A DNA stretch of 64,000 bases from a virus. The number at the start of each line of letters is the position of its first letter. Position 1 is the stretch's first letter. Where the stretch lies: the IMG/VR virus record IMGVR_UViG_3300027773_000004, positions 1-64,000 of that record. One strand, given 5' to 3'. Shown piece after piece: positions 12,093 to 63,320 of this stretch. The notes beneath the pieces are model-generated. The model did no database searches. It had not been told where the DNA came from and saw nothing but the letters and a program-made list of their open reading frames with translations. The position numbers and the translations under genes were made by a program.

Positions 12093-12112
12093 CCGGATAG
12101 GCAGAGGCTGGC

Positions 12113-14495: not shown

Positions 14496-14582
14496 CAACC
14501 GGCTTGGGGGCGATTTCCCGCCCCGCCAAAGCCGAGATGCTACGGCCGGAGGGGCTGACGAGATGTTGGGAGAGGCTCAAGC

Positions 14583-15698: not shown

Positions 15699-15727
15699 GC
15701 ACCGCAAGCAACTCGAATGGAAACGAA

Positions 15728-16321: not shown

Positions 16322-16336
16322 TGCAAGGAGACCATC

Positions 16337-16666: not shown

Positions 16667-16703
16667 TCTTCACGTCCAGAACAACCTTTTCCGGGTGATC
16701 GCG

Positions 16704-18179
16704 ATGGCGAAGATCTTGCGCAATCTCCGAATCACCGAGGTGTCGTCTGTCGATCGCGGGGCCGGCGAAGGCGTCAAGGTCGTGCTGATGAAGCGGGATG
16801 AAAAAACCATGGATATTCAGATCGACGCCGCGCTCGCCAAGATCGACGCGGCCGGCGAAGCAGACCCCGTCATCAAGCGCACCTTCACGGCACAGCAGCG
16901 GCGCGAGTACGCCCGCAGCGGCGTCGCAATGAAGGACGGCTCCTACCCGATCGCCAACCGAGCGGACCTTGAGCGAGCCATTCACGCGGTCGGCCGCGGC
17001 AGGAACAATTCTCACGAAGCGATCCGGCGACACATCATCGCCCGGGCCCGCGCGTTGGGCGCGACCAGCATGCTGCCCGACGATTGGAACGTCAAAAAGC
17101 GGGCGCTGCCGGCGGTGCTGGAGAAATTCTTCGCCGTCTTCGGTGTCGCCAAGGATGGTCACGACTTCGATACGGTCCAGGCCGCAGTCGAGGCCCGGGA
17201 ATACGCCTGCGGCATGCTTCAGGAAATCTGCGAGGCGGTCGGCTCCCTGCGCGAGTCGGTGAACTCGATCATGTGCGACGACGAGCTGACCGACAAACAG
17301 GCGGCGCTCGACGAGACGTTCGGGCAATTCCAGGAACACGTCCAGGGCATCGTGCCCGAGGGCATAGAGACGGCCATGGCCGCAGCGGCGCTAGTGGCGG
17401 ATGGCTACACGATCAACCCGCAAGGCGCCGTGCACAAGCAGGAGGATCGCATGACCGATCTGGAGAAGAAGCTTGCGGAGACCGAGGCGGCACTCGCCAA
17501 GGCCCGCAAGGATATGGACGACGAAAAGGCCGCCCGCGAGATGGCCGCCAGGGAGAAAGAGAGCATCGAGAAGGCGCTCCATGCGTCACTCGAAATGCCG
17601 GTCGCGCATCGCGACTACATGAACCATCCTGACCAGGACATGACCGTCACCGAGAAGGTGGCGTTCGTCAACAAGTCCGCGTCGGAGCGGGACGAGTTCA
17701 TCAAGGCGCACCCGATCGCCGAGAAGACCGAGAAGCGGATCGCCTCGCTGCCGGAGAGCGTCCGGAAGGCGCTTGAGGCCGGCAAGGCGGCAGCCGAACA
17801 GGTGCAGAAGCTCGCTGACGAGGCGGTGGCGACCGAATTCGCAAAGCGCGCGTCGGACATGGGCCTCGGTAATGACCTCGTGCCGCACATGATCGCGTTG
17901 CACAAGGCCGCGCCGGAAGCCTATGCCGAAATCCAGAAGCAGCTTGAGGCGCTTGCCGCGCAGGTGAAGGCCGGCGAGGTGTTCAAGGAGTTCGGTGCCC
18001 GCGGATCGGTCTCGGTCGATGACCCGGTCGGCAAGGTCGGTGCGGTCGTCGCCGAACTGCAGAAGTCCGATGGGAAGCTCAGCAAGGCGAAGGCGATCGC
18101 CAAGATCGCGACCATGCCGGAGCACCGTGACCTCTGGTACGCCTACAAGGCGGCCACGCAGGGCAAGCGCGGCGCCTAA
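16704..18179 (+). CDS. Scaffold-like head protein with YPI/helical domain
   Basis: 491 aa from ATG 16704; longer reading rejected because it overlaps the previous gene by over 120 bp. The N-terminus RITEVSSVDRGAGEGVKV is a signature seen in phage proteins next to prohead proteases. Residues about 70-115 (DGSYPIANRADLERAIHAVG, HIIARARALGA) look like the DUF6582-type module. Residues 240-330 are a long charged coiled coil (LEKKLAETEAALAKARKDM), as in internal scaffolds. It probably guides capsid assembly and is a substrate of the XkdF-like protease. Exact role inferred from position. Confidence 0.65.
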   Translation: MAKILRNLRITEVSSVDRGAGEGVKVVLMKRDEKTMDIQIDAALAKIDAAGEADPVIKRTFTAQQRREYARSGVAMKDGSYPIANRADLERAIHAVGRGRNNSHEAIRRHIIARARALGATSMLPDDWNVKKRALPAVLEKFFAVFGVAKDGHDFDTVQAAVEAREYACGMLQEICEAVGSLRESVNSIMCDDELTDKQAALDETFGQFQEHVQGIVPEGIETAMAAAALVADGYTINPQGAVHKQEDRMTDLEKKLAETEAALAKARKDMDDEKAAREMAAREKESIEKALHASLEMPVAHRDYMNHPDQDMTVTEKVAFVNKSASERDEFIKAHPIAEKTEKRIASLPESVRKALEAGKAAAEQVQKLADEAVATEFAKRASDMGLGNDLVPHMIALHKAAPEAYAEIQKQLEALAAQVKAGEVFKEFGARGSVSVDDPVGKVGAVVAELQKSDGKLSKAKAIAKIATMPEHRDLWYAYKAATQGKRGA

Positions 18180-18277
18180 GAGGCCGTCATCGCCCGCACC
18201 CGAAGGGAGAGCGTCAGGCGCCCTTCTTTTCGCCCGCGCCGAGAGGCGCCGGCTGTCCCACAGACGGAGTATGCCCC

Positions 18278-18655
18278 ATGGCTACAGAAGGCCCATTCCT
18301 TGCGGACGGCGCGCAGACCACTGCGGCCGCCGATCTTTCCAGCAACCAGTTCTACGCCGTCAAGCTGACCGGCGCGCGCCAAGTCAATTTGGCCAGCGCC
18401 GGCGGCGAAGACATCTATGGCGTGCTGCAGAACAAGCCAACCTCCGGCCAAGTCGCCGACGTTGCGCTCTACGGTATCTGCAAGGCTGTCGCCGGCGCCG
18501 CGTTCTCGGCGGGCGCACAGCTGATGACCGATACGTCGGGAAGGTTGATCGCCGCCACCTCGACCAACCATCGCGTCGCGAGCGCTCTCGAAGCCGCCAC
18601 CCAGGCCGGCCAGATCGTGACCGTGTTCCTGCGCCCGATCGGCACCGTGACCTGA
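18278..18655 (+). CDS. Capsid decoration/stabilisation protein (DUF2190-like)
   Basis: 125 aa, mostly beta, with AVKLTGARQVNLAS, VLQNKPTSGQVADVALYG and GAAFSAGAQLMTDTSGRL. This order is typical of DUF2190-type cement proteins that bind the outside of the capsid. Located just before the major capsid gene, as usual. Confidence 0.8.
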   Translation: MATEGPFLADGAQTTAAADLSSNQFYAVKLTGARQVNLASAGGEDIYGVLQNKPTSGQVADVALYGICKAVAGAAFSAGAQLMTDTSGRLIAATSTNHRVASALEAATQAGQIVTVFLRPIGTVT

Positions 18656-18673
18656 TCGGCCGCTCACTCCATA

Positions 18674-18697
18674 GGCCGGTGCCCTCGGGTGCCGGCC
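18674..18697. other. Stem-loop between decoration and capsid genes
   Basis: GGCCGG (18674-18679) pairs with CCGGCC (18692-18697), with an inner CCC/GGG pairing. It lies in the 203-bp gap before the capsid gene. No T-run, so more likely an mRNA-stability or processing element. The rest of the gap shows nothing clear apart from the capsid RBS (GGAG, 18847-18850). Confidence 0.45.
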
Positions 18698-18858
18698 TTG
18701 CCCCGTCTGGCCCTTGGGCAAGGCCCACCGCCGCAGGGTCGTGAGACCGCCGCCCCTTCGTCTCCGAAGGATCGCGGGCCGCGTGCGGCTGCTGTCCACG
18801 TAAACCCTGCGGAAAAGCCCGCCGAGAGGCGCGCGATCCCATTGATGGAGATGGCACT

Positions 18859-19854
18859 ATGCCGCAACCTTCAAACTCGGACGTCCATGTCAACGCGGCC
18901 CTGACCGACATCTCGGTCGCGTACCTCCAGGACGAGGCCCACTACGTCGCCGACAAGGTGTTCCCGACCGTGCCGGTCGTGCATCAGTCCGACAAGTATT
19001 TCGTCTTCTCGAAGGACGATTACTTCCGTGACGAAGCGCAGTTGCGCGCCGACGCCGAGGAGTCGGCCGGCGGCGGCTTCACGCTTTCGACCAATAGCTA
19101 TTCGGCCTCCGTGTGGGCGTTCCACAAGGACATCGGCGACCAGACCCGCCGCAACGCCGATCCGGCGCTCGACATCGATGTCGCCGCCACGAAGTTTGTC
19201 ATGCAGCGCCTGCTGATCCGCCGCGAGCGGTTCTTCATGGCGAAGTACATGACGACCGGCGTCTGGGGCACGGACAACACCGGCACCGCCGGCGGCACGC
19301 CGGGCACCACGACCCCGGCCTTCTGGAACGACGATGCCGGCGGCGATCCGTTCACCGATGTCGAAGTCGGCCAGAGCACGATCCTGCAGAACACCGGCCA
19401 CGAGGCCAACATCCTCGTGCTGTCCTATCCGGTGTATGCGGCGCTGCGCAAGCACCCGCTCGTCGTCGACCGCATCAAGTACACGATGCAGGCGGACGCC
19501 AAGTCGATCACCCCGCAGCTGCTCGCCGCGGCGTTCGACGTGGAGGAGGTGCTGGTCTCGAAGGCGGTCTACAACACCGCATCGGAAGGCATCGCCGGGT
19601 CCTACAGCTTCACGATGGGCAAGAGCGCATTGCTCTGCCACCGCGCCGATGCGCCGGGCCTGATGGTCGCCTCGGCCGGCTACATCTTCCCGTGGGAAGG
19701 CTACACCGGCCTCAACAACATGGGCGTCCGCATCCTGGAAATCCCGATGCCGTGGCGCGGCAACAACACCGTGCGCATCGAGGGCGAAATGTCCTTCGAC
19801 ATGCAGGTGGTCGGGAGCGACCTCGGCTACTTCTTCAGCGGCATCGTCCAGTAG
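18859..19854 (+). CDS. Major capsid protein (HK97 fold expected)
   Basis: 331 aa. Early VAYLQDEAHYVADKVFPTVPV, then YFVFSKDDYFRDEA and an EESAGGGFTLSTNSYSASV stretch, long spine helix around DIDVAATKFVMQRLLIRRE, and C-terminal RILEIPMPWRGNNTVRIEG. These match a widespread group of phage major capsid proteins. No separate delta domain is evident because the scaffold is a separate gene. A stable hairpin follows the gene, fitting high expression. Confidence 0.9.
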   Translation: MPQPSNSDVHVNAALTDISVAYLQDEAHYVADKVFPTVPVVHQSDKYFVFSKDDYFRDEAQLRADAEESAGGGFTLSTNSYSASVWAFHKDIGDQTRRNADPALDIDVAATKFVMQRLLIRRERFFMAKYMTTGVWGTDNTGTAGGTPGTTTPAFWNDDAGGDPFTDVEVGQSTILQNTGHEANILVLSYPVYAALRKHPLVVDRIKYTMQADAKSITPQLLAAAFDVEEVLVSKAVYNTASEGIAGSYSFTMGKSALLCHRADAPGLMVASAGYIFPWEGYTGLNNMGVRILEIPMPWRGNNTVRIEGEMSFDMQVVGSDLGYFFSGIVQ

Positions 19855-20938: not shown

Positions 20939-21016
20939 ATGGAGGCCCTCGCGACCGCTCTGGTCGCCGGCGGCCTTCTCATCCTGTTCGTGCTGTTCCT
21001 GCGTGGAGGGCGATGA
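20939..21016 (+). CDS. 25-aa membrane peptide
   Basis: ATG at 20939. One hydrophobic helix (LATALVAGGLLILFVLFLRG) and a basic end. The stop TGA (21014-21016) overlaps the following ATG at 21013. Coupling suggests it is expressed with the secreted protein downstream. Confidence 0.45.
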   Translation: MEALATALVAGGLLILFVLFLRGGR

Positions 21017-21423
21017 TGCGCGCCTGGCTGTCTCGCCTTCTCCTGGTCCTCGCCTCGATATTGCTGGTTGCATCTGTCGCGAATGCGGCGGCCGTGCAAC
21101 CGGAATACGCGTCCGGCATCAACGGCTCGGACTACAGCGTCAACCCGCCATCGCTTTCCGGGCTGACGTTGCTGACGACAATCCCAGCCGCTGGTGGCCA
21201 CCGGCTCGGTTACCTCATCGTCGTCTCGTCGAGCGTCGCCTACTACGTGACGCTGGATGACGGAACAGACACGGGAACGAACTGTACCCCCGGAAAATGC
21301 ACGATCTTGCCCTTGGGTCTGAACGGCATCGGCTCATGGATGGATATGGCCGGGATGCCGCATACCGGGCGGATTCGCGTTTTTGGGACGGCCGGCAGCT
21401 TCGTCGGCGCGCACTCCTGGTGA
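21013..21423 (+). CDS. Secreted or fibre-like protein with signal peptide, 136 aa
   Basis: The N-terminus MMRAWLSRLLLVLASILL then VASVANA-AAVQ is a textbook Sec signal peptide with likely cleavage after Ala25. The mature ~111 aa is beta-rich with a Cys pair (NCTPGKCT). It lies in the structural region among fibre genes. A signal peptide on a virion protein is unusual because phage assembly is cytoplasmic. It may act in the periplasm or outer membrane of the infected cell instead. Confidence 0.65.
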   Translation: MMRAWLSRLLLVLASILLVASVANAAAVQPEYASGINGSDYSVNPPSLSGLTLLTTIPAAGGHRLGYLIVVSSSVAYYVTLDDGTDTGTNCTPGKCTILPLGLNGIGSWMDMAGMPHTGRIRVFGTAGSFVGAHSW

Positions 21424-21428
21424 TCCCG

Positions 21429-22142
21429 ATGACGCCGCTCGGAACACGGATCGCCGCCATCGCGAGACGCGCTGCAGCAGGAGCGTTCACGCTCGGCCTA
21501 TTGGCCGGAACGGCTTGGGCCGACATTGGCGGTGGCAGCAGCGGCGGCGGTGGCGGATCGACCCCGCCGGGCGGCACCAACGGCCAGATTCAATACAACA
21601 ACGCCGGAAGCTTTGGCGGTCTTGCGAACTCGCTGACGATCGCCGGCCAAGCCGTCGGCCTTGGCGGATCGTTGACCGCGGCGGTGCTCACCGCAGCCCT
21701 GAACCAGTTCTCATCTTCTCTCCAGGGCCTTGTCCCAGCCTCGGGCGGCGGCACCACGAATTACCTGCGCGCCGACGGAACCTGGGCCGCGCCGGCCGGA
21801 GGCGGCAGCGCTCCGACTCTCTCGGCCGGCTCCGGCGCTCACACCCTCTCGGGCACCGCCGCGTATTTCGTCTGCACCGGGGCCTGCACGATCACCCTGC
21901 CGACCCCGGCGGCCGCCGCCGAATATTGCGTCTACAACGACACCGGGGTTTCAACCGCCATCACTTTGGCCGCGCTCGGCGGCAGCGATGCGTACGAAAA
22001 GACCGACCACTCCGGCTACGGAACTGCCGGCACCGGTACGATGGTCAGCGCCGGTGCCCTGGGTGACCGGGTTTGCCTCACCGGCCGCGACGCAACGCAC
22101 TACCAGATCGGCGCCCTGACCGGCTCCTGGACGGTCAACTGA
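21429..22142 (+). CDS. Tail-fibre-like protein with signal peptide, 237 aa
   Basis: ATG at 21429. Signal-like N-terminus (FTLGLLAGTAWA, cleavage near residue 31), a Gly/Ser linker, then a GTNGQIQYNNAGSFGG motif and TNYLRADGTWAAP, both common in phage tail fibres and spikes. The C-terminal half is beta-rich with three Cys. The stop overlaps the next ATG. It may be an appendage subunit or secreted adhesin. Confidence 0.7.
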   Translation: MTPLGTRIAAIARRAAAGAFTLGLLAGTAWADIGGGSSGGGGGSTPPGGTNGQIQYNNAGSFGGLANSLTIAGQAVGLGGSLTAAVLTAALNQFSSSLQGLVPASGGGTTNYLRADGTWAAPAGGGSAPTLSAGSGAHTLSGTAAYFVCTGACTITLPTPAAAAEYCVYNDTGVSTAITLAALGGSDAYEKTDHSGYGTAGTGTMVSAGALGDRVCLTGRDATHYQIGALTGSWTVN

Positions 22143-24610
22143 TGCGGCGCATCGTTCTCGCCGCCGCGCTCTTCGCGCTGGTGTCGAGCCCGGCCTGGGC
22201 GACGGTCTACCACGTCCAGCAGACCGGCTCCGACAGCAACCCCGGCACCTCCGGAAGCCCGTTCCAACACATCTGGAAAGGCATCTCGGCCGCGGTCGCG
22301 GGCGATACGGTGTGCGTCGATGACACCGCGACGTATGACGGGACGTTCGAAAACGGCCAGACCGGCGGGGCTTCGGATCAGCGCGTCGTGCATTTCGGCG
22401 GCAGCTCAGGCTCGCCAAGCGGGACATCCGGCAACCCGATCAAGCTTTCCGTACGCGCCGCCGATGGCTGTGCCGGCGGCAACGTCGTCACGATTTCCCG
22501 CCTCAACGGCCCGAGCGCCAGCAACAACCACGTCCTCTTCTACGGCATAGAAGTCGAGGGCGTGAATTATATCTCGATCCTCGGCAACCCGCTGCACGGC
22601 CCGACCTGCGTGTCGAGCTGCTGGAAAATCTACGGCGGCGACGATCAGGCGAATACGATCCTCGGCGGCGGCTATGCCGACAATCTCGCGGCGTGCGTCG
22701 CCAACCCCTCGGCCTTCATCTGCAACGGCAACGCCGTTGGCGCCTACGGGCACCACATCACGGTTGAAGGGGTCGAGGTCTACTTTCACGGCTCCTCGGG
22801 CATCGAGGGAGCGTCCAACGGTGGTGGCGCGCCGCAGGACTACCTGATCTACGCCTACAACGCGGCGCACGACAACGCCTACTATTCGCCGGCAGGCGGC
22901 TCCGGGATTTCATCTCTCCCCTTGGCGCTCGACAGCAGTCCCGGCATGACCTGCCCGGACGATACGTCGGGCAACCTCTATCACATCTGCGTCGTCGGCA
23001 ACTGGTCGTACAACAACAACGAGCAGGTCACCGAGACGCAGACCGGCCATCGTTCGGATGGCAACGGCATCATCATCGGCGGGACCTCGACCTATACCGG
23101 GTCGGTCCTGATCATGAACAACATCCTGACCGGAAACTCCGGCGACGGGGCGCACTGCATCAACGTGACGGCGGTATCCGGCGCGCCCGCCGCCTGCGAT
23201 CTCGTCTACAATACGGTCTATGAGAACCAGCAGTCGCCGAACGGGACGGGCGCGCTGCAATCCGGCTGCGCCGCGCCGTGCTCGGCCAACGGCGAAGTGG
23301 ACAGCAACAACAACTCGGCCCGCTACTTCGCGAATATCCTTTATTCGAAGAACACTACCGACAATTACACGATAGGTTCGCTCGGGACCGGCACTCTCGG
23401 CGGCAATTACAACGACCGTTTCCAGGGGGCGGGCGCAGCGGTCACGGGCGCGAACGACATTACCGGCGACCCGAAGCTGACCAGCCCCGGCTTCACCAGC
23501 GTGGCGAATTTCCATCTTCAGGCAGGATCGCCGGCGATTGGCGCAGCGGGCGGGTTCGCGGCACCGAGCGTCGATTTCTTCGGCACGACGCGCAGCAGCC
23601 CAACGGCGATGGGCGCGGTCGAGTTCGCAAGCGGCGGCACCCCGCTGTCGAGCGGCGGCATGATCTCCCTGTTCGGCGGCGGCGGTCCTTTCCTCGGCTA
23701 CACGCGCCAGACGGTGTGCTTTACCTCCTCGGCGACGTTCAACAAGAACAGCGACGGCTCGAACATCACCGTCGAGGCGATTGGCGGCGGCGGCGGCGGA
23801 GCCGGCTCGAACGGCGGCGTTTCTATCGGCGGGCCGGGCGGCGGCGGCGAGTACCGCGCCGCGTCGCTCGCGTATGCCTCAGGCACCAGCAAGGCCATCG
23901 TCATCGGCAGCGGCGGGGCTGGGGGAGCCCCGTCCGGGAACGGGACGGCTGGCGGCGCAACGACATGGGACAGCACCGTCGTTGTCGCCAATGGCGGCGG
24001 CGGCGGGACAGCGGCAGGCGCTGCGGGATCTGGCGGTTCCGGCGGCACCGGAACGACCGGCCACAATGGCGGATCGGGCGGGACCAACGATCAGGTCGGC
24101 TATGCCGCGGCCGGTGCTGGCGGTGCTGGCGGTCCGCATGGCGCGGGCGCGGCCGGCGGTGCCCAATCCGGCTCCAATCAAGGCGGCGCTGGCGGCGGCG
24201 CATCCGATGGCGGTAGCGTCGGGACGGCCGGCAGCGGCATCAACGGTCAGGCTGGCGGCGCGGCGCAGGACAGCACTGCGGGCGGCACTGGCGGAACCGG
24301 CGGCGCTTCCCCAACCGCGGGCGGTTCTGGTTCGCACGGATCGGGCGGCGGCGGTGGCGGCGGCTCGACGGCTGCGGTGACCGGCGGCACCGGTGGCGCT
24401 GGCGGCAATGGTGTCGGCGGCACAACGGCGATCAGCCCCGGCGGCGGCGGCGGCGGCGGCGGCGGCGTGCAGAACTCGGCGACCGGCGGCAACGGCGGTG
24501 TTGGCGGGAATTACGGCGGCGGCGGCGGAGCCGGCGGCTACAGCGCGACCGGTGGTGCCGGCGGCAATGGCGCGGCCGGCCAGCTTTGCGTCATCGGGAA
24601 TTTTCAGTAG
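22142..24610 (+). CDS. Secreted beta-helix protein with polyglycine C-terminal domain
   Basis: 822 aa. Signal peptide (ALVSSPAWA, cleavage after Ala20). Residues about 21-500 form a right-handed parallel beta-helix: VYHVQQTGSDSNPGTSGSPF opens it as in DUF1565/pectate-lyase-like proteins, ending with LQAGSPAIGAAG. From about 535 on comes a Gly-rich domain (TFNKNSDGSNITVEAIGG) followed by ~270 residues of GG-rich repeats resembling polyglycine-II sandwiches of phage adhesins. A depolymerase or receptor-binding adhesin is likely; no catalytic residues could be assigned. Confidence 0.75.
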   Translation: MRRIVLAAALFALVSSPAWATVYHVQQTGSDSNPGTSGSPFQHIWKGISAAVAGDTVCVDDTATYDGTFENGQTGGASDQRVVHFGGSSGSPSGTSGNPIKLSVRAADGCAGGNVVTISRLNGPSASNNHVLFYGIEVEGVNYISILGNPLHGPTCVSSCWKIYGGDDQANTILGGGYADNLAACVANPSAFICNGNAVGAYGHHITVEGVEVYFHGSSGIEGASNGGGAPQDYLIYAYNAAHDNAYYSPAGGSGISSLPLALDSSPGMTCPDDTSGNLYHICVVGNWSYNNNEQVTETQTGHRSDGNGIIIGGTSTYTGSVLIMNNILTGNSGDGAHCINVTAVSGAPAACDLVYNTVYENQQSPNGTGALQSGCAAPCSANGEVDSNNNSARYFANILYSKNTTDNYTIGSLGTGTLGGNYNDRFQGAGAAVTGANDITGDPKLTSPGFTSVANFHLQAGSPAIGAAGGFAAPSVDFFGTTRSSPTAMGAVEFASGGTPLSSGGMISLFGGGGPFLGYTRQTVCFTSSATFNKNSDGSNITVEAIGGGGGGAGSNGGVSIGGPGGGGEYRAASLAYASGTSKAIVIGSGGAGGAPSGNGTAGGATTWDSTVVVANGGGGGTAAGAAGSGGSGGTGTTGHNGGSGGTNDQVGYAAAGAGGAGGPHGAGAAGGAQSGSNQGGAGGGASDGGSVGTAGSGINGQAGGAAQDSTAGGTGGTGGASPTAGGSGSHGSGGGGGGGSTAAVTGGTGGAGGNGVGGTTAISPGGGGGGGGGVQNSATGGNGGVGGNYGGGGGAGGYSATGGAGGNGAAGQLCVIGNFQ

Positions 24611-49928: not shown

Positions 49929-51602
49929 GTGGGCATCTACGGGCGACCGATCATCTACGACCAGTCGATGGTCAGGGACTACGACCATCTCTGGGCCTGG
50001 CGCGGCAACGAGTACGCCCGCTCTCAGAGCCTCGCGGACCTCCTGGGCAGCACCGGCACCGTCGTCACCGGCCTCGGCGCGACGCCGACCGCTCCCGCCA
50101 GCCTGACGATCAATCTTGCGGCCGGCGACATCTACCAGCTGGCGCAGCTCGATACGACCGCTTACGGCTCGCTGAACCCGGATACGACGCAGACGATGAT
50201 GCAGGGCTTCGCGGTCGCGCAGACCGTGCTGCTCTCGACCTCCGGCCTCGGTGCCGGCCAGTCTCGCTATGCCCTGATCACCGCCTCGTTCAGCCAGGCA
50301 GATTCAATCCCGTCCGACGATCCGACCGGTGGCCTCCTCTATTACCTCAACACCGTCAACCCGACCGGCGCGCCGTACAGCGGTCCGAACAACAACAACA
50401 CCTTGCAGAACACCCGCCGGCAGGGTGTGTGCACGATCGGCGTCACCTACGGCACGGTCGCGACCACGGGTTCGGAAGTGCCACCGAACGCGCCGGGCGG
50501 TGCGGTCGGGCTTTACCTGATCGACCTGACCTTCGGCCAGACGCAGGTCAACGCCAACCAGATACTCGTCGCCGGTCCGTCGCAGGGCAGCAACACCCCG
50601 AGCAATTACCCGCAGGCGCCCTTCCTCGCCGGCCTGACGCAGAAGCCGACGGTCGGGACCTACGCCGGCAATCCGAACGGCAACCTCGCCGGCACCGTCG
50701 TCGGCACGGTCGGGCCGAGCTACGCCCCGAACTTCTGCTGGGACACGACAGATGGCCTGATGTGGGTGTGCAGCCAGACCGGCAATGCACTGACCGCGAA
50801 ATGGGTCGGCGGCGGCAACCGCACCCGCCTCACCGCCAATACGACGATTTACGTCAACGCCTCGACCGGCAACGACTCGACTGCAGACGGTACCTCGGCA
50901 AAGCCGTTCCGCACGCTTCAGGCCGCGCGCAACTACGCGTTCTCGCATTTCGATGGCGGCGGCGTCTACAGCCTCACTTTCCAGTGCACCGGCGCTTTCA
51001 CTGCCGGCCTCCTGGCGTCGGGCACGATTTCCGGCCTGCCTTCGGTCGGCGAAATCTGGAACTTCACGTCGAGTTCCTCAATTGCCCTGAGCGCCGTCTC
51101 CACCTACTGCATCAGCGCTGTCAACGCGGCGATCCAGATCACGGGGACGGTGCAGCTCAGCTCGACCGGCGGCGGTTCGGCATCCTGCGTCCAGATCGGG
51201 GCCGGCGGCTTCATCCTGCTCAATTCGACCGGCATCGCCTTTGGGGCCGCGGTCAACCAGATCTATCTGACGCAGGGCGGCACCGTCGAACTGGCCACCG
51301 GTTACACGATCAACGGCAATGCAGGACAGCACGTCAACGGCGGCAACGGCAGCTTCTACGCGCCGGAGGCCACCGTGTGCACGATCACGCTGACCGGCAC
51401 GCCCGCCTTCACAACCTTCATATCGCTGAACTACCAGTCCTTCGTGCAGCTGAGCGCCGCGTACGTGACCTTCTCCGGCGGCGCGACCGGGCAGCGCTAC
51501 AACGCGGCGGTGCAGTCGTACATCAAGACCGACGGCGGCGGCGCGAGCTTCCTGCCGGGCTCGACGGCGGGCGCGGTCGACGCCACCAGCGTCTACAACT
51601 AG
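49929..51602 (+). CDS. Tail fibre/spike with parallel beta-helix
   Basis: 557 aa from GTG 49929 (GGCAGGAG upstream). N-terminal ~290 residues resemble fibre anchor domains. At about 302 a beta-helix opens with TTIYVNASTGNDSTADGTSA and KPFRTLQAARNYAFSHFDGG (pectate-lyase-like opening), running to the C-terminus. Likely a receptor-binding or depolymerising tail spike. Confidence 0.8.
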   Translation: MGIYGRPIIYDQSMVRDYDHLWAWRGNEYARSQSLADLLGSTGTVVTGLGATPTAPASLTINLAAGDIYQLAQLDTTAYGSLNPDTTQTMMQGFAVAQTVLLSTSGLGAGQSRYALITASFSQADSIPSDDPTGGLLYYLNTVNPTGAPYSGPNNNNTLQNTRRQGVCTIGVTYGTVATTGSEVPPNAPGGAVGLYLIDLTFGQTQVNANQILVAGPSQGSNTPSNYPQAPFLAGLTQKPTVGTYAGNPNGNLAGTVVGTVGPSYAPNFCWDTTDGLMWVCSQTGNALTAKWVGGGNRTRLTANTTIYVNASTGNDSTADGTSAKPFRTLQAARNYAFSHFDGGGVYSLTFQCTGAFTAGLLASGTISGLPSVGEIWNFTSSSSIALSAVSTYCISAVNAAIQITGTVQLSSTGGGSASCVQIGAGGFILLNSTGIAFGAAVNQIYLTQGGTVELATGYTINGNAGQHVNGGNGSFYAPEATVCTITLTGTPAFTTFISLNYQSFVQLSAAYVTFSGGATGQRYNAAVQSYIKTDGGGASFLPGSTAGAVDATSVYN

Positions 51603-52209: not shown

Positions 52210-53862
52210 ATGCTCACGCCGCACTTCGCGGCGCCGAGAGGGCTGCGCCGGCTTCTCGCGCCCATCCTCTCGGCGCTACTCGCCTCCCTGCCGGTCGCGG
52301 CGCAGACCCCGGTGCCGTTCCAGACCTCCTACGACGGGCTGGTGCCGATCCTCGCGACGGCGCAACTGCAATCGGGAACCGCAGGATCGGTTTCGCTTGG
52401 GCAGATACTTTACGTCGTCGCCTCGGGTTCTCCCGGCGCCACGGCGATTTCCGCCCCCGCGTGCAATTCGACCAATGACGGGCACTATTTCGCGGTTGCC
52501 GATGAGGCGCTGAACGCCGGGGCGTACAACGACACGGTCACCCCCTCCGGCGGGACCATCGACGGGGGCGCGAGCGAAGCCCTCAATTTCAACGGGCAGG
52601 CCATCGTCTGGCGCTGCCATGGGGCGACGGCGAACTGGGTGGCATTCACCCGCGCTTTTGTGCAGGGCAGCAGCCTCGCGACCTATACCGGCTCGTTCAC
52701 GATCGGCCATCTGCCGACCGCCTCGTCCACATCTGGGCAGTTCCAGGACAGCGGCCTCGCGCCGCTCACCTCACTGCCGGGGTTTTCGCTCTACGGCAAC
52801 CCCAATTCCTCCTCCGCCGCTCCGACCAGCGTGCCGCTGGCGGCCACGGGATTCACCGCGAACGCCGGGACGCTCTATCCGGCGACGCCGATCCGGGGCT
52901 TCGTCAACAAGCTACGCAATTCGAGCCTGTCACAGTGGTACGGCGGCACCACTCCAACGGTCACGACTTCGGGCGGCTGGGGGCCCGAGGGCGTCTACAT
53001 CGTCCCGACCGGCGGATCGGTCAGCGCGCAGCAGGGGACCGCCACCACTTACTTCTCGCCGCCGCAGGCTTATTGGGCGATGGCCCTGGTGCCGGCGTCG
53101 AGCGTCACCGACATCGTGTTGCGCTTCCCGATCTACAGCCAGACGGCGGCGCAACTGGCGGGCCAGAACGTCACCTGCCAGTTCTTGCTCTACAACTCGC
53201 TTTCGACGGCGGTTACGCCGAAGTTGACGGTCAAGCGGGCGACCGCCGGACAGGACAGCTTCGGCAGCAACGCAACAGATGTCAGCGCCGTCAGCCTGCA
53301 AACCGTCCCGGCTACGCAGGTGGCGACCGTCGCCTATACCTTCGCCGCCAACAACGCCAGCGGCCTTGGCCTGTCGATCGATCTCGACCTCAACACCGCG
53401 ATCACGAGCCCGAATTTCATCGCGCTTGGCGGCATGGACTGTCGTGCAACCCCCAACGTGGCGACCGGGCTCAACGCCAATCCGCCACCGATGGAAGTCG
53501 CTCCGCCGGCCTTTGATGCGGCGTGGAACCAGGCTTTCTTTGAGACGAGCTACGACAACGGCGTCGCGCCGGCGACGGTGACCACAAACGGCGTCGCCGA
53601 ATTATATTCGTCTGCTTCGGCGGGAATGGGAGTGCCGATCTACTTCAAATCCCGCAAGGTGTGCGACCCGACGTTGACGATCTGGAGTCCTACGACCGGC
53701 GCGTCCGGCAAAGTGCGCGACTTCCAGAACAATACCGATGTCAATTTCAACACCGGCTTGATCGGACAGACGGCGGCGCACATCAACTCCACCGCGTCGG
53801 CCGGGACGGTCTCATTCTTCGGCTACCACTGGGCCGCCGACTGCCGCAACAGCGGCGCCTAA
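52210..53862 (+). CDS. Fibre-like protein with signal peptide, 550 aa
   Basis: N-terminal signal (LRRLLAPILSALLASLPVAA, cleavage about residue 31). Then Ser/Thr/Gly-rich beta modules including TYTGSFTIGHLPTASSTSGQ, LPGFSLYGNPNSSSAAPTSV and a C-terminal lectin-like part (RNSSLSQWYGGTTPTVTTSG) as in phage receptor-binding proteins. The signal peptide is at odds with cytoplasmic assembly. First of a run of exported proteins. Confidence 0.7.
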   Translation: MLTPHFAAPRGLRRLLAPILSALLASLPVAAQTPVPFQTSYDGLVPILATAQLQSGTAGSVSLGQILYVVASGSPGATAISAPACNSTNDGHYFAVADEALNAGAYNDTVTPSGGTIDGGASEALNFNGQAIVWRCHGATANWVAFTRAFVQGSSLATYTGSFTIGHLPTASSTSGQFQDSGLAPLTSLPGFSLYGNPNSSSAAPTSVPLAATGFTANAGTLYPATPIRGFVNKLRNSSLSQWYGGTTPTVTTSGGWGPEGVYIVPTGGSVSAQQGTATTYFSPPQAYWAMALVPASSVTDIVLRFPIYSQTAAQLAGQNVTCQFLLYNSLSTAVTPKLTVKRATAGQDSFGSNATDVSAVSLQTVPATQVATVAYTFAANNASGLGLSIDLDLNTAITSPNFIALGGMDCRATPNVATGLNANPPPMEVAPPAFDAAWNQAFFETSYDNGVAPATVTTNGVAELYSSASAGMGVPIYFKSRKVCDPTLTIWSPTTGASGKVRDFQNNTDVNFNTGLIGQTAAHINSTASAGTVSFFGYHWAADCRNSGA

Positions 53863-53885
53863 ACCGAACCGGGAGAAACCCTGGC

Positions 53886-54479
53886 ATGAACAGACCGCTT
53901 CGGGCGGCGCTGCAATGCGTTGTGCTGGCGTTCGGCCTTTTGTGGCTCGCTGCCCCGCTCGGCCATGCGCAGTCGATCGCACCGTGCCCGCAGACCGGCA
54001 CGGTCAATCCCGGCGACGTGCTCGTCGCCGGGCCGCAGACCACCCTCGCGGACAGCTGCGTCGCGCCGGCTCCGAACATCTGCCAGACCATCTTCGGTCA
54101 TTCCGACCCGATGCAGCCTCCGCTCGGCCCCGACACCAGCCCGGCCTATTTCGGCCTCGCCGGCTACAGCGGCGGCTCGGGCGCCGTCGCGGTGACGTTG
54201 CCCGAGGGGATCGGCTGGCTCTACGACCTCACGGTGTGGGTCGCCACGGCGCCTCCGGCCGGGTCGAGCGATACGGTCTACCTTAACTACGAGACGCAGA
54301 ATACCGCCGTCGGCGGCGTGGTGACGCCGGGTCAGAACCTGCTCGTCGATGCCGATCCGAGCCACGCCGTCGAGGTCAACGGCGGCAGCTTCTGGGTGCT
54401 CTACAAGGCCGTCGGCGGGGCGGCGGGGTCGCGCTACGGCATCTCCTGGTCGGTCAAATACTGCGCGGGGCATCCGTGA
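53886..54479 (+). CDS. Exported 197-aa protein
   Basis: ATG 53886. Signal peptide (CVVLAFGLLWLAAPLGHA, cleavage about residue 28). Mature part beta-rich with four Cys and SIAPCPQTGTVNPGDVLVAG. Its stop overlaps the next ATG. Function unknown. Confidence 0.65.
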   Translation: MNRPLRAALQCVVLAFGLLWLAAPLGHAQSIAPCPQTGTVNPGDVLVAGPQTTLADSCVAPAPNICQTIFGHSDPMQPPLGPDTSPAYFGLAGYSGGSGAVAVTLPEGIGWLYDLTVWVATAPPAGSSDTVYLNYETQNTAVGGVVTPGQNLLVDADPSHAVEVNGGSFWVLYKAVGGAAGSRYGISWSVKYCAGHP

Positions 54480-54709
54480 TGCGCCGGGTCATCGTCATGA
54501 CGCTCGCCGCGGCGGCGTTGGCCGCCGTCGCCGAACGCGCCATCGCTGCGGAGCCGACGCCGCCCCGCGTCGAAATCTGGGTTCACTGCGGCGGGCAAGC
54601 CCCGACCCGGCTCGGCCCCGGCCAGACCGTCCCGGCCGGCTGCCAGATCATCCGCCATCACCTCGGCAAGGAGCGCAGCGATGCAGAGAACGCGCCCTCT
54701 GGGCCGTAA
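54479..54709 (+). CDS. Exported 76-aa protein
   Basis: ATG 54479 (TGATG overlap). Signal MTLAAAALAAVAERAIAA, mature ~52 aa with two Cys (VHCGGQ, AGCQ). The gene overlaps the next by 29 bp. Function unknown. Confidence 0.55.
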   Translation: MRRVIVMTLAAAALAAVAERAIAAEPTPPRVEIWVHCGGQAPTRLGPGQTVPAGCQIIRHHLGKERSDAENAPSGP

Positions 54710-56006
54710 GGCTTGGCGGCGGATCGCCGCCGCGCTCGGATTTCTCGCCTGCCTCGTCGGACCGATCGAGGTCGCGGGCGCCTGCACGCTCCCGGCGGAT
54801 ACGACGAACCGGCTCGGGCGCATGCAGGTCTTCGATTACGCGATGAGCGATGCCTCGGCCCTGATCAACCGCGACATGACATGGGCGTCGGATAACGGCC
54901 TTGGGCCGCCGAGTCCAACCCTGCCGCAAGGAGTGTGGTCCTCGGCCTATACGACGTTCGCGGTCGATTACCACCCCGGCAATTCGCTGTCGTGGTGGCA
55001 GGCCAACCATCCCGGCTGCATCGTCTACCAGAGCGACCACAAGACGATCGCCTACATGTTCGGCGGCCCGCCCGACGCGCCGTCGGTGCCGTTCGCGTTC
55101 TGGAAATCGGAGTGCCAGCAGGTCGAGCTCGCCTATATCCTGAGCGAGGTCCGCTACGGCTACAACTCGATCTCGCTCGATAATCTCGATGCGGTCAATA
55201 CCTGGGGCTACTATGGCACCTGCTCGGTGGCGCTCTCTGCCGGCACGACCTGCGAGGGCGGCGGTGGCACCTTCACGCAGCGATTCACCGGCGGGGCCGG
55301 CGATCCGCAGTACGTCGCCGATGTCGCTTCTTGGGTGCAGACGGTGCGGGTGGCCATCGAAGGGGTCAATCCCAATACCTGCCTGATGGGCAATTTGGGC
55401 TTTTCGGCGCAGCACGCCAGCGATGTCGTGACCATCGCGAAGCAGCTCGATGTCTGGTTCAACGAAGACGGCTGGTGGTTCGCCTGCGGCCCCTGGGATA
55501 CGCAGGACAATTACTGGCAGATCCTGTTCGCGGTGCTCGCGACCCTCAGCATTCCCGGCTATGTCGATAACAACTACATGACCGACATCGCCGGCGGCGG
55601 CGGCGGCAACTGCCACTCGGCGCCGTCGCAACCGGGCGCGGAAGCGCTGGAATTCGTCATCGCCAGCGACATGCTGATCAAGGGCAACCATACCTATCTC
55701 GCGCTGTCGGCCTACCACGTCGCGCAGTACGAGGACTATGGCCTCTCGCCGTGGTGGTATCTGAACCACGGCCCGGCGCAGGGACCCTATTCCGTCAGCG
55801 GCGGCATCTACAGCCGCCAGTTCGCCAACGCCCTGGTCCTGGTCAACCCTCCGGGCGGCGCGGTTGCCACCTACAATCTCGGCTCGACCGTCTACTGGCG
55901 GATGAACGGGTTGCGAATGACCGGCACGATCACGATGCAGCCGGGGACTGGGCTGGTGCTGATGACCTCGCCGCCGGCCGCCAACGGCTCGGTCGCGGTG
56001 CACTGA
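54681..56006 (+). CDS. Secreted GHL15-like glycoside hydrolase
   Basis: 441 aa. Signal peptide (RIAAALGFLACLVGPIEVAG). A TIM-barrel-like sequence follows: VDYHPGNSLSWWQANHPGCI, ISLDNLDAVNTWG, TCLMGNLGF, LDVWFNEDGWW, YLALSAYHVAQYEDYGLSPW, then a beta end (GIYSRQFANALVLVNPPGGA). The Asp/Glu at the strand ends (DNLD, NEDGW) are candidate catalytic residues. The R-x-F-x-N-x-L-V-L-V-N ending is typical of GHL15-type proteins. Likely acts on cell-surface or capsule sugar. Confidence 0.6.
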   Translation: MQRTRPLGRKAWRRIAAALGFLACLVGPIEVAGACTLPADTTNRLGRMQVFDYAMSDASALINRDMTWASDNGLGPPSPTLPQGVWSSAYTTFAVDYHPGNSLSWWQANHPGCIVYQSDHKTIAYMFGGPPDAPSVPFAFWKSECQQVELAYILSEVRYGYNSISLDNLDAVNTWGYYGTCSVALSAGTTCEGGGGTFTQRFTGGAGDPQYVADVASWVQTVRVAIEGVNPNTCLMGNLGFSAQHASDVVTIAKQLDVWFNEDGWWFACGPWDTQDNYWQILFAVLATLSIPGYVDNNYMTDIAGGGGGNCHSAPSQPGAEALEFVIASDMLIKGNHTYLALSAYHVAQYEDYGLSPWWYLNHGPAQGPYSVSGGIYSRQFANALVLVNPPGGAVATYNLGSTVYWRMNGLRMTGTITMQPGTGLVLMTSPPAANGSVAVH

Positions 56007-56023
56007 GACGGGAGCGCGCGACG

Positions 56024-56533
56024 ATGAAACGGCTTGCCCCGCTCGTGGCGCTCGTGCTGCTGGGGTCTCCCGCGGCTGCGCAGGCTCCCGCAACACCGCA
56101 GGCGCCGCTGCCGCCGGGGCCGTGCGAAGCCCATCCGGGGGCCGGCGCATACCAGGCGACCGCGCAAGGCGCCGTCGTGTTTCTCGCGACCGGAGCAGTC
56201 ATCCCGAACGCACCCGACAACCCGATGTGGCGCTGCTACCAGGAGTGGCTTGCGGCGGGCAACCAACCCGTGCCCGCACCGGCCGCGCCGGTGACGAAGA
56301 TCGTCTCGCGCTCGGTCTTTCTGTCGCTGTTCACGACAGCGGAGCTGGTGGCGATCTCAGGTGCCGCCCGAACCAACGATGCCGTCAATGTTTGGCTGAT
56401 CACCGCCGAGGCGGCCGACAGCATCGACCTTGCTGCGGCGAAGACTAAGGCCGGACTCGACGCGCTCGTCGCGGCCGCGCTGCTGACCGGCGCGCGCGAA
56501 GCCGCGATCCTGGCGGGGCAGCCGCCCGCGTAG
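56024..56533 (+). CDS. Exported 169-aa protein
   Basis: ATG 56024 after CGGGAG. Signal peptide (LAPLVALVLLGSPAAAQ). Pro-rich linker, two Cys, then a helical domain (VFLSLFTTAELVAISGAART) that resembles small helical modules seen in phage tail-fibre cassettes. Function unknown. Confidence 0.6.
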   Translation: MKRLAPLVALVLLGSPAAAQAPATPQAPLPPGPCEAHPGAGAYQATAQGAVVFLATGAVIPNAPDNPMWRCYQEWLAAGNQPVPAPAAPVTKIVSRSVFLSLFTTAELVAISGAARTNDAVNVWLITAEAADSIDLAAAKTKAGLDALVAAALLTGAREAAILAGQPPA

Positions 56534-56576
56534 CAAACGCCGTCGCCCGCCGACGATTTCCCAAGGAGACGCCTCG

Positions 56577-57080
56577 ATGACCAAGCTGCTGAAGGTGGCG
56601 CCGCTGGCGCTCGCCCTGATGGCCGCCGCCTGCACACTCTCGCAGACCGGGAAGAACGACGTTCTGTCGTACGAGCAGATCGCCCAGCAATTGGCGCAAT
56701 CCCCATCCGGCCAGGGCGTCCTGGCCTGGCTGAACGGCCTCGCCCCGAAGGCCCAGGCGGCGATCCAGAAGGTAAACGCCAAGCTCGGGATCGGGGTCGA
56801 CGACGTGAAGGCGATGTGCGGCTTCGACAACACCGTGCACAGCCTCGTGCAGCTTGCCTTGGTGCTGGCGCCGCAACTGCCGAGCGCGGTCATGACGGCG
56901 GACAACATCGGCTATGTCGCGATCCAGGATACCTGCGCCCTCGCGACCGCGGGGACGCTGCCGAGCGCGACGCAGATACAGACGCTCGTCACCTACGCCA
57001 ACGACCTCTCCGGGCTGACCAAGCCGGCGCAGGCCGTCGCGGCGCAGCAGGCGGCGGCACGGAAGGCGGCCGGGCAATGA
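56577..57080 (+). CDS. Lipoprotein, 167 aa
   Basis: Signal with lipobox: PLALALMAAAC, Cys19. The mature protein is helical (EQIAQQLAQSPSGQGVLAWL, GVDDVKAMCGFDNTVHSLVQ). ATGA overlap with the next gene. Probably anchored to a membrane; role unknown (exclusion or cell-surface remodelling). Confidence 0.7.
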   Translation: MTKLLKVAPLALALMAAACTLSQTGKNDVLSYEQIAQQLAQSPSGQGVLAWLNGLAPKAQAAIQKVNAKLGIGVDDVKAMCGFDNTVHSLVQLALVLAPQLPSAVMTADNIGYVAIQDTCALATAGTLPSATQIQTLVTYANDLSGLTKPAQAVAAQQAAARKAAGQ

Positions 57081-57796
57081 CCGATATCGCGATCGTCAAC
57101 CGCAGCACGGTAGCGACCGACGCGCTGCTGTCGGCGATGCTGCCGGCACTGCAAATCCAGGTGACGCGCGACCTCGCCCCGTGGTGGGGCGTCACCGCGA
57201 CGCTGCATTTCGTCGGCGCCGGCGCGCAGCCCGAACCGACGCACTGGCCGATCTGGGTCATGGATCGCTCCGATCAGGCGGGCGATCTCGGCTATCACGA
57301 TACCGCCGGCGGACCGCTGCCCGAAGCCAGGGTCTTCGCGGCCGATGACGCCAAGTACGGCGCCATGCTCAGCGTCACCCTCAGCCACGAGCTGTGCGAG
57401 ATGCTGGTGGACCCGACGACCGAGCGCATGGTTCAGCTCGGCCCGGTCGGTTACGCGGTCGAGATCGCCGATCCGGTCGAGGCAGACAGCGACGGCTACG
57501 CGATCGGCGGCGTGCAGGTCAGCAACTTCGTGACGCCACGCTACTTCGGCCTGCCCAACCCCAGCGGCGACGCGCGCTTCGACCATCGCGGGCTGCTGAC
57601 GGCGGGATGCCCCAGCCTGCGCCCCGGCGGCTACAGCCTGTTCTTCGAGAACGGCGTGTGGAAGTCGACGATGGCCCGGCTCGCGGATGGCTCGCTGAGC
57701 GGGCGCGCGATCCGCTCCATCGGCCGCAGCTACCGCCGCGCCGGCCGGATCACCGGGTCGCCAGCTTTGGTGGCGTCATGCGCTGTCGTGTCCTGA
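57077..57796 (+). CDS. Putative zinc metallopeptidase (HELxE)
   Basis: 239 aa, coupled to the lipoprotein gene. MLSVTLSHELCEMLVDP places H104, E105, E108 and D112 in a HELxExxxD arrangement like a short zincin motif; a third zinc ligand cannot be fixed by eye. The N-terminal TLHFVGAGAQPEPTHWPIWV is strand-rich. No signal peptide. Homologues with 'SHE-[LI]-x-EM-x-x-DP' are common among uncharacterised proteins. Function inferred. Confidence 0.6.
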   Translation: MTDIAIVNRSTVATDALLSAMLPALQIQVTRDLAPWWGVTATLHFVGAGAQPEPTHWPIWVMDRSDQAGDLGYHDTAGGPLPEARVFAADDAKYGAMLSVTLSHELCEMLVDPTTERMVQLGPVGYAVEIADPVEADSDGYAIGGVQVSNFVTPRYFGLPNPSGDARFDHRGLLTAGCPSLRPGGYSLFFENGVWKSTMARLADGSLSGRAIRSIGRSYRRAGRITGSPALVASCAVVS

Positions 57797-59505: not shown

Positions 59506-59653
59506 ATGACCCGCCATCTCGCCGCTGCGCTCGCGATGGTGGTGGCGGCGGCAGAGCCGGCCTGCCCAGATGCAGATCATCGGCGGCGACTGCCCCTGCG
59601 TCGTCGATGCCGGCAGACTGACCGCCACCGCGACCGCGGCGGGGGTGGCTTAG
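59506..59653 (+). pseudogene. Possible frameshifted small exported peptide
   Basis: ATG 59506 gives a signal-like MTRHLAAALAMVVAAAEPA in one frame; the natural-looking continuation (MQIIGGDCPCVVDAGRLTAT) to TAG 59651-59653 lies in the +1 frame. A single indel near 59560 would make a ~48-aa secreted Cys-Pro-Cys peptide. The uninterrupted first frame runs on as a non-natural Arg-rich chain to 59757. Spanin-type overlapping genes are the alternative. Confidence 0.35.
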
Positions 59654-59656
59654 CTG

Positions 59657-59866
59657 TCAGAGTGCATGTGGTAAACCAGTGGCCTGAGCCGGGGCGGCCT
59701 CTTTGGGTTCCCGCCGCGATTTGGCGATCATTGCGCAAAATACCTTCTTTGCTATGAAGTCATCGGCGTAGTCGAAAAACTCATCGAGCACGCGGACGCC
59801 GGCCTCAATCATCTCCGGCGTAACCTCTATCTCGGTGGTTGAAGTTGTCTCGCTCTCTCGTTCCAT
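59657..59866 (-). CDS. Leftward 69-aa acidic helical protein
   Basis: ATG 59866 with AAGGA 8-12 nt upstream. EIEVTPEMIEAGVRVLDEFF and FIAKKVFCAMIAKSRR follow the pattern 'ITPEMIEAGxxxL...FxAM' of small proteins common in alphaproteobacteria and their phages. Against the local transcription. The gap 59867-60026 holds nothing else recognised. Confidence 0.65.
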   Translation of the reverse strand: MERESETTSTTEIEVTPEMIEAGVRVLDEFFDYADDFIAKKVFCAMIAKSRREPKEAAPAQATGLPHAL

Positions 59867-62114: not shown

Positions 62115-62732
62115 ATGGTGATCGCAACACTGCTGCAACCGGCTCCCGACCAGCTCATGAACGCACTCCGCCCCGACAGGCGCAGATCTTCGCCACCTTG
62201 CCTTACCAAAGAACGGCAGCCGAGACTGGTGCTAAGCCGTCCCGTTGCCGCAATGATTGCGGCATACGCACTTGCGGCAAATGCCACCGCCGATCCGCCG
62301 ACAGCGATGCTGACCCCCGATCCGGTTCTGACCCCCGGCGTCGTCGCCTCGACAGACGCCGATGCGATCTGCGGCCACGCTGGCGGCGGGTCCTACTCGC
62401 GTGCTCATCGCTTCACCACGCCGGAGATGAAGGCACAGGTCTTTGCCGAGTACGGCATGGCCGTCCCGGTTGGGCCCGAGCGGCGCCGGTGGGAAATTGA
62501 CCATCGTGTGCCTCTGGCGTTGGGCGGCGCCGACGATCTCCGCAACCTATGGCCGCAATACCGGGGCGGCCTATGGGGCTATCCGGCGAAAGATCGGTTT
62601 GAAGCCTACGCGGCGCGCGAGGTGTGCGACGGCCGCGTGCCGCTGGCGACGGCGCAGGGATGGTTCCTCGCACCGGACTGGCGCGTCGGATACTGCGCCG
62701 TCTTTCGCGATGAGAATTGTCCGGCGCGGTAA
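62115..62732 (+). CDS. Exported HNH-like nuclease
   Basis: 205 aa. N-terminal hydrophobic RPVAAMIAAYALAANATA suggests export (start may be ATG 62253 or upstream). The nuclease core is WEIDHRVPLALGGADDLRNL and WPQ, the DHxxPLxLGGxxxxxNLWPQ signature, followed by KDRFEAYAAREVCDGRV. Two to four Cys could form disulfides. Could degrade DNA in the periplasm. Divergent from the AT-hook gene across an AT-rich 87-bp gap. Confidence 0.78.
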   Translation: MVIATLLQPAPDQLMNALRPDRRRSSPPCLTKERQPRLVLSRPVAAMIAAYALAANATADPPTAMLTPDPVLTPGVVASTDADAICGHAGGGSYSRAHRFTTPEMKAQVFAEYGMAVPVGPERRRWEIDHRVPLALGGADDLRNLWPQYRGGLWGYPAKDRFEAYAAREVCDGRVPLATAQGWFLAPDWRVGYCAVFRDENCPAR

Positions 62733-62792: not shown

Positions 62793-63320
62793 ATGACGAC
62801 GCAACCCTTCTCCGACGCCGACCTCCTGGCGTGCCTTCCCAAGCTGCGGCGCTATGCCTACAGCCTCACCCGCAATCCGGCCGACGCCGAGGATCTGGTG
62901 CAGCAGACGATCATGCGCGCCCTCACGAAGCGGCATCTGTTCGAGCCGGGCACCAACCTGACGGGTTGGCTCATGACGCTCGCGCACAACCAGCGCATCA
63001 ATTCGGTGAGGAAAGCGGTTCGCGAGAGCACGATCGAACTCGAACCGGAGCAGGTCGAGCAGGTCCGCGCCGTTGTCGACCCCGAAGCGCGGCGGCTGCT
63101 GAGCGAGGTCGAGGCGGCGATGCGCCGGTTGCCGCGGGGGCAGCGGCGGCTCCTCATGCAGGCCGCGCTCAGCGCCGACAACTACGAGGAGATGGCGGCG
63201 TACGAGGCGATCCCGGTCGGGACCGTGCGATCGCGGCTGTCCCGCGCCCGCCAGGCGTTGCGCGCGCTGGTGCACGGCGCCGAGCTCGGCCGCGACGAGC
63301 GCGAGCATCTCGGCCTGTGA
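62793..63320 (+). CDS. ECF-type sigma factor
   Basis: 175 aa. Region 2: LPKLRRYAYSLTRNPADAED and LVQQTIMRAL, FEPGTNLTGWLMTLAHNQRI. Region 4: LPRGQRRLLMQAALSADNYE and GTVRSRLSRARQAL (143-156). Size and GTNLTGWL element resemble alphaproteobacterial EcfG-type general-stress sigma factors. It would direct host RNA polymerase to phage or stress promoters. No anti-sigma gene is visible. Overlaps the following gene (GTGA). Confidence 0.92.
   Translation: MTTQPFSDADLLACLPKLRRYAYSLTRNPADAEDLVQQTIMRALTKRHLFEPGTNLTGWLMTLAHNQRINSVRKAVRESTIELEPEQVEQVRAVVDPEARRLLSEVEAAMRRLPRGQRRLLMQAALSADNYEEMAAYEAIPVGTVRSRLSRARQALRALVHGAELGRDEREHLGL

Follow-up and report, generated by a model that had tools for sequence, protein, structure and literature searches.

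The stretch of DNA analyzed here (hereafter the window) spans positions 1–64,000 of an 80,823-base IMG/VR virus record, IMGVR_UViG_3300027773_000004, and holds a contractile-tailed phage. At 52210–57080, the window carries six consecutive genes on the + strand, whose products all begin with a predicted signal peptide. Signal peptides were judged not with SignalP but with a purpose-written scorer, which evaluates a positively charged n-region, a hydrophobic h-region, and small residues at −3/−1 or a lipobox, with a working cut-off of 6.5. All six genes are real reading frames and all six reach the cut-off, with scores of 7.1–8.6. A first-pass annotation of this DNA, made from the letters alone, had proposed such a run and named failing signal predictions as its refutation; with our scorer, which is other than SignalP, the predictions held. 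The six genes are as follows.

52210..53862, + strand: predicted exported tail-fibre-like protein, 550 amino acids; signal-peptide score 8.0, cleavage predicted after residue 31 (VAA^QTPVPF); six mature cysteines.
53886..54479, + strand: predicted exported protein without a family, 197 amino acids; score 7.1; four cysteines.
54476..54709, + strand: small predicted exported protein, 77 amino acids; score 8.1; two cysteines.
54681..56006, + strand: predicted exported GHL15-like (sub-threshold) protein, 441 amino acids; score 8.5; eight mature cysteines.
56024..56533, + strand: predicted exported protein, 169 amino acids; score 8.6, reached by 0 of 2000 shuffles; two cysteines.
56577..57080, + strand: predicted lipoprotein, 167 amino acids; AAAC lipobox, lipoprotein score 7.9; the lipid cysteine plus two further cysteines.

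A GGAG sequence lies upstream of five of the six genes. The third starts at either GTG 54476 or ATG 54479 and overlaps the preceding stop codon, and 56577 overlaps the gene that follows it. Four of the predicted signals are of the signal-peptidase-I type, 56577 is a lipoprotein, and 54681 could be either: it was scored as a lipobox at C24, with a signal-peptidase-I site near residue 33 as the alternative reading. The maximal 19-residue Kyte-Doolittle means of the mature parts range from 0.09 to 1.60, the highest being that of 56024. Since the usual membrane limit is a mean of 1.6, which the highest value just reaches, a second membrane segment is unlikely in the six proteins. Shuffles of residues 2–45 reached the scores of the six in only 0 to 24 of 2000 cases.

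The scorer was calibrated on 82 E. coli K-12 proteins from two stretches, labeled by RefSeq product names and recall; end-cut genes, RNAs, one pseudogene, and five small or membrane coding sequences (CDS) were left out. Scores of at least 6.5 were obtained for 15/15 exported, 0/49 soluble (maximum 5.3), and 7/18 inner-membrane proteins. None of 32 other, hand-picked window genes reached the cut-off (two window frames outside these controls, at 59506 and 62157, score 7.7 and 6.3). In three annotated isolate phages, 4/88 CDS did so (1/28, 0/25, and 3/35, each set being part of the annotated CDS of its stretch). At that rate, six consecutive genes would arise by chance with a probability of ~1e-8, an arithmetic figure that assumes independence. 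Compared with these three phages, the run is unusual for its size, as the first-pass annotation had stated.

We identified six more genes for predicted exported proteins in the same record, three in the head module of the window (21013–24610) and three in a second head module. The placement after the tail fibres, which the earlier annotation had stressed, is therefore correct for the six-gene run, but exported genes also occur inside head modules. The three genes in the window head module are as follows.

21013..21423, + strand: predicted exported protein F1a, 136 amino acids; signal-peptide score 9.4; two cysteines.
21429..22142, + strand: predicted exported protein, 237 amino acids; score 7.3; four cysteines; GQIQYNNAG stretch.
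22142..24610, + strand: large predicted exported protein, 822 amino acids; score 8.7; 14 cysteines; its start overlaps the preceding stop codon.

The genes at 21013 and 21429 are five bases apart, and those at 21429 and 22142 overlap by one base. The GQIQYNNAG stretch in the 21429 product is one that we take to be a tail-fibre-like motif; the protein has no Pfam or PHROG match at E 0.01. The 22142 product, in a longer 845-aa frame, weakly matched phrog_863 tail fiber assembly (E 6e-5), with no match in Pfam or phage records. In the second terminase-portal-protease-capsid module, the genes for predicted exported proteins lie at record positions 72415, 76534, and 76983 (scores 6.7, 8.0, and 6.7). 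The 21013 and record 76534–76983 proteins are homologous (42% identity), though they belong to different head modules. When all six frames of the record were scanned with a cut-off of 7.0, 15 frames were returned, 12 of them on the + strand, and 10 of these 12 fall in the clusters described; two of the three genes at the record end, scoring 6.7, are just under this cut-off.

The record contains two different terminase-portal-capsid modules, at window 10725–19854 and record 70638–80784 (L002:8638–18784). Contig G001 agrees with the record without a mismatch over 73,704 bases, ending at position 73,704, and is therefore not independent evidence; the end of the record is matched by a third contig. 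The two modules may belong to neighbouring prophages or may have been brought together by an assembly join beyond position 73,704.

Exported proteins meet oxidizing conditions, in which their cysteines tend to pair. With cleavage sites set by hand and lipid cysteines excluded, the mature cysteine count is even in 12/12 predicted exported proteins of the record, for which a coin toss gives about 1 in 4000. The nine window proteins remain even with the sites chosen by the scorer, provided that the lipid cysteine is not counted for 54681 and 56577. Per 100 residues, the 12 proteins contain 1.60 cysteines and 36 other phage proteins (one of 37 was dropped for a wrong frame) contain 0.48, a roughly threefold difference; 23 of the 36 contain any cysteine, and the count is even in 7 of these 23. 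Even counts and high density are as expected of oxidized exported proteins, and paired cysteines would fit an oxidizing compartment in all 12, with the disulfides themselves predicted from the counts.

The signal peptides could be followed further in relatives of the second module, which are presumably soil phages, going by the window's own record and the nature of the data sets. The second-module capsid has 394 related loci, of which we used the best 80 (79–86% identity, apart from the identical contig). Its nearest isolate is at ~42% identity, and 3/385 genomes of the Komagataeibacter class encode the protein at 41–45%. A family of ~860-residue proteins, fib2, lies between terminase and portal in 6/6 of the 80 loci that have both, and likewise in 8/8 such loci from a set that was chosen for carrying F1 and includes re-fetched contigs. 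Truncated, duplicate, and fused copies aside, all 16 distinct fib2 members score at least 5 and 14 at least 6.5, and each has exactly ten mature cysteines. For F1, 15/16 score at least 6.5, and all 16 have two cysteines. Among other proteins from the same loci, none of the portals (0/29), proteases (0/59), or capsids (0/60) scored as a signal peptide, nor did F0, a small unexported neighbour (0/10). Kinship between F1 and F0 was rejected (profile comparison probability 2%). Neither F1 nor fib2 has a match in phage records, and F1 is found in none of the 385 genomes of the Komagataeibacter class.

Among 13 fib2 sequences, the identity is 29% in the signal region and 72% in the mature part, and the signal is the lower of the two in 78/78 pairs. 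The duplicates L123, L043, L086, and L069 and members without QSPG near the start are omitted from this set; QSPG at the mature start is shared throughout, but it also served as the selection rule. For F1, the values are 41% and 68%, with the signal lower in 77/78 pairs. To judge from these alignments, this divergence is the pattern expected of a signal peptide that is cleaved off. The searches returned no diverged homologues for the six genes of the run, so this comparison could be made on the related families only.

Ordinary virion fibres with alanine- and leucine-rich starts could mimic signal peptides in a GC-rich genome, and the window's GC content of 61–74% in 2-kb steps does favour alanine-rich proteins. 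The shuffles, the 0/148 same-locus controls, the parity and density of the cysteines, and the divergence pattern all speak against such false signals, which we judge to be very improbable.

The same divergence bears on whether the proteins are parts of the virion. In a tailspike, conservation is usually concentrated in the head that binds the virion. The pattern in fib2 is the reverse, since its N-terminus, a variable signal peptide, is the most variable part, and no conserved N-terminal virion-binding domain was found there. Exported fibres might nevertheless fold and oxidize in the periplasm and join released particles at or after lysis. The location of the genes inside head modules, among terminase, portal, and protease, is the usual place of virion genes, and the mature parts are fibre-like, both of which fit such a role. 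A conserved virion-anchoring N-terminus would be expected, but the N-terminus is the most variable part here, and assembly after lysis would dilute the components, so we consider this explanation unlikely. A second extracytoplasmic route, which we regard as doubtful, is that in some soil phages the fibres and spikes of the head runs are exported, oxidized in the periplasm, and meet virions only at lysis, either arming the particles or remaining as a cloud of unattached spikes, by which the surroundings would be cleared or masked to the benefit of the progeny.

Exported-looking frames also occupy the gap between portal and protease in these relatives. Counting small lipoprotein-like frames, a frame scoring at least 6.5 was present in 21/40 loci with both genes, and all 21 belong to the 29 loci in which the gap is at least 1000 bases. 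All 17 large gap frames score at least 5 and 15 at least 6.5, some of them being near-duplicates. Across all 80 loci in full, the + strand carries 66 exported-looking frames and the − strand 28. A ~220-residue family from the tail region of this capsid group, represented by L050:12539–13198, has 9/17 homologous frames scoring at least 6.5.

This arrangement bears on lysogenic conversion, in which expression in a lysogen would alter adhesion or the cell surface to the benefit of the host bacterium. Exported cargo is a common form of such conversion. The genes, by contrast, lie on the same strand, several overlapping or nearly touching, and recur at positions among core head genes, which suggests expression together with virion genes and makes lysogenic conversion quite unlikely in our view.

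We next considered what the mature parts resemble. The C-terminus of the 52210 protein (residues 428–548) shares 35% identity with a region annotated as tail fibre in Stenotrophomonas phage Silvanus (E 5e-8). The 53886 protein matched nothing in Pfam or PHROG at E 1 and nothing in phage records, and no fibre- or spike-type domain was found in 53886 or 54476 with Pfam and PHROG. The glycoside-hydrolase-like label that the first-pass annotation gave to one of the six has a counterpart in a match of 54681 to Pfam GHL15, but a weak one (E 0.0015, 18.9 and 20.3 bits against a cut-off of 27). This protein has no match in phage records or three Komagataeibacter genomes; none was found in 395 genomes of the Komagataeibacter order either, an empty result that carries little weight without a known positive. 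The 56024 protein matched phrog_34019 and phrog_25252, and had one short match in phage records, to phage Simon. Its C-terminal domain is 57% identical over 77 residues to a protein of a 95 kb phage contig (L209:3154–3747), which is encoded directly after a fibre-like gene and lacks a signal peptide (score −1.9); the domain thus occurs both with and without export. Homology of the 56577 lipoprotein with an L209 lipoprotein was not convincing (E 0.065). In IMG/VR, the proteins of 54681, 52210, and 56024, like the window's baseplate J, were matched by the identical contig G001 alone.

The related exported proteins were more informative. Among seven large proteins scanned (gap or fib2), a PF12708 pectate-lyase-like domain follows the signal in five, with two of the matches exceeding the cut-off, and tail spike or tail fibre PHROGs were matched by 4/6 gap proteins (best E 2e-28). 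Foldseek searches with a fib2 model returned viral tail fibres, tailspikes, and pectate-lyase-superfamily proteins. The F1 model (predicted local distance difference test score, pLDDT, 61) had no fold match below E 0.001, and comparing sequences with those of solved structures yielded no useful hit. Receptor or lyase domains of the fibre/spike type are accordingly found in the 52210 C-terminus and, as PF12708 and PHROG spikes, in related proteins. The pectate-lyase-like domains in the second-module relatives would fit the remodelling of glycans that the first annotation had suggested. They also bear on the possibility that the proteins are receptor-binding decoys, in which secreted or lipid-anchored fibre-like proteins cover receptors on the host or on debris, blocking rivals and sister phages by superinfection exclusion or protecting released virions. 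The fibre-type C-terminus behind the signal peptide of 52210 fits receptor masking, as would the predicted lipoprotein with its lipobox in the same run (56577), but the lyase-like domains point to cutting and not to binding alone, and we find the decoy explanation rather unlikely.

The exported genes are not confined to this record. The 95 kb contig (G777) encodes an exported-looking F1 (score at least 7.9), a frame of 700 residues that begins with a predicted signal peptide (8.7), and two lipoproteins (7.3 and 7.1). It also carries a relative of the window's 57077 protein (42% identity) and a sigma factor like that of the window (40%), with no relative of the window's J. This gene set indicates that exported genes recur on at least three different backbones. 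On the same contig, a large frame (L209:11527–14316) has an internal start, MQRISRRSLLAG, which we take to resemble a Tat signal; to judge from this start, Tat export may also be used. Elsewhere, different exported-looking small proteins (L124:11430–11918 and L129:5439–5855) occupy the same post-capsid slot as the window's 21013–24610 cluster.

Taken together, we favour, with intermediate confidence, a late set of Sec-exported fibre/tailspike-like and glycan-active proteins that bind or cut glycans off the virion. This interpretation rests on the signal peptides, the diverging signal before a conserved mature start in the related families, the even cysteine counts, and the gene order. Export of the set is well supported by the predicted sequence features; when it occurs, the cleavage and disulfide formation, where the proteins act, which glycans they target, and how the phage benefits are inferred. 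In the proposed course of events, the genes lie in same-strand runs of virion genes, and the host Sec pathway would export all 12 proteins late in infection, so that the products leave the cytoplasm. They would form disulfide bonds in the periplasm and then be attached to the surface, retained in the periplasm, or released at lysis. The mature toolkit would comprise a tail-fibre-like protein, a possible glycoside hydrolase, and a lipoprotein, with tailspike/pectate-lyase-like proteins in relatives. Its most likely function would be the off-virion binding or cutting of glycans of the host surface and matrix, by which progeny could be freed from capsule and matrix.

Several observations weigh against this interpretation. 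The scorer is home-made and passes 7/18 inner-membrane E. coli proteins, and the ordinary fibre encoded at 49929 is also cysteine-rich, with seven cysteines. Apart from the identical contig, the six proteins have no homologues at hand. PF12708 was unmatched in the proteins of 52210, 53886, 54476, 54681, 56024, 56577, 21429, and 22142, and the GHL15 match of 54681 is below its cut-off. The fib2 model has a mean pLDDT of 61, with residues 125–332 below 50, and its template modelling (TM) scores are ~0.1–0.2; its fold matches are therefore local. Among the second-module relatives, 19/40 loci have no frame scoring at least 6.5 in the portal-protease gap, some hold another cassette without signals there, and an extra large gap protein outside the 17, L195:6018, scores just 5.5. 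At loci with a window-like capsid, the equivalent slot is exported-looking in 4/31 non-duplicate loci, which include the window's own contig and one unconvincing case, and the strand enrichment over whole loci is absent (15 + versus 23 −). A trait common to all relatives of the window phage was thus rejected. Finally, the proposal does not explain how folded spikes would pass the outer membrane before lysis.

The following genes mark the surroundings of the predicted exported genes in the window.

10725: terminase.
12113: portal.
18859: capsid.
31622: tail sheath.
47390: baseplate J.
49929..51602, + strand: tail fibre without a signal peptide (score below 6.5); phrog_4577 tail protein, E 3e-4; seven cysteines.
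57077..57796, + strand: protein without a signal peptide; 42% identity to L209:4894–5583, which lies beside the lipoproteins in G777.

Baseplate J is matched in phage records by the Komagataeibacter phages phiKX1 and phiKX2 alone (37% identity), which hints at an Acetobacteraceae-like host. The 57077 product has an HE..EM motif, which would presumably make it a possible metallopeptidase. Past the endolysin, the 83-aa frame at 59506–59757 is arginine-rich after its signal-like start (7.7) and may be spurious. The 191-aa frame at 62157–62732 combines its signal-like start (6.3) with four cysteines and what we take to be an HNH-nuclease-like stretch, so that its product is a possible exported nuclease. 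A Sigma-70-type factor with region 2 and region 4 domains (62793–63320), 40% identical to the one in the 95 kb contig, may be phage-encoded rather than a host factor. Beyond the window, record 64601–69123 (L002:2601–7123) holds 29 tRNA genes, interspersed with a gene for an RtcB-type RNA ligase.

The conventional view of tail fibres and spikes is that they belong to the virion and are put together in the cytoplasm. If our interpretation is correct and several genes for exported proteins of this kind recur within the head gene runs of soil phages that are common but uncultured, infection would also deliver free, disulfide-stabilized glycan-active proteins to the cell surface and the soil matrix. 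Models of how phages spread in soil, of superinfection, and of soil matrix turnover would be affected. Annotators would also have to reckon with "tail fibre" genes that encode a signal peptide and may have no part in the virion.

In the open-access literature, we found no description of exported tail-fibre/tailspike sets in phages, and the systems that come closest each share a part of the picture. The Silvanus tail fibre (MZ326867) has a C-terminal region in common with 52210 (35% over 121 residues), but it is annotated as an ordinary tail fibre and the match is confined to that region. The GHL15 family (PF14885) matches 54681 locally, over residues 319–384 only, and under the curated cut-off. 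In phiKX2, three genes score as exported, two of them lipoprotein-like, but in neither phiKX1 nor phiKX2 is the tail fibre gene followed by a series of exported fibre-like genes. Phage tailspikes and capsule depolymerases with a PF12708 beta-helix resemble the related exported proteins in the pectate-lyase-like domain and the tail spike PHROGs. They differ in that the related exported proteins begin with a signal peptide that diverges, where a tailspike would have a conserved head for binding the virion, that exported genes lie inside head modules, and that the cysteines are conserved. A precedent for an exported protein with a tailspike-like fold is WceF of Pantoea stewartii, a Tat-exported bacterial enzyme with a tailspike-like trimeric beta-helix fold, linked to exopolysaccharide (PMC7949094). 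WceF is bacterial and exported by Tat, whereas the proteins described here are phage-encoded, predicted to be of the Sec type, and several per phage.

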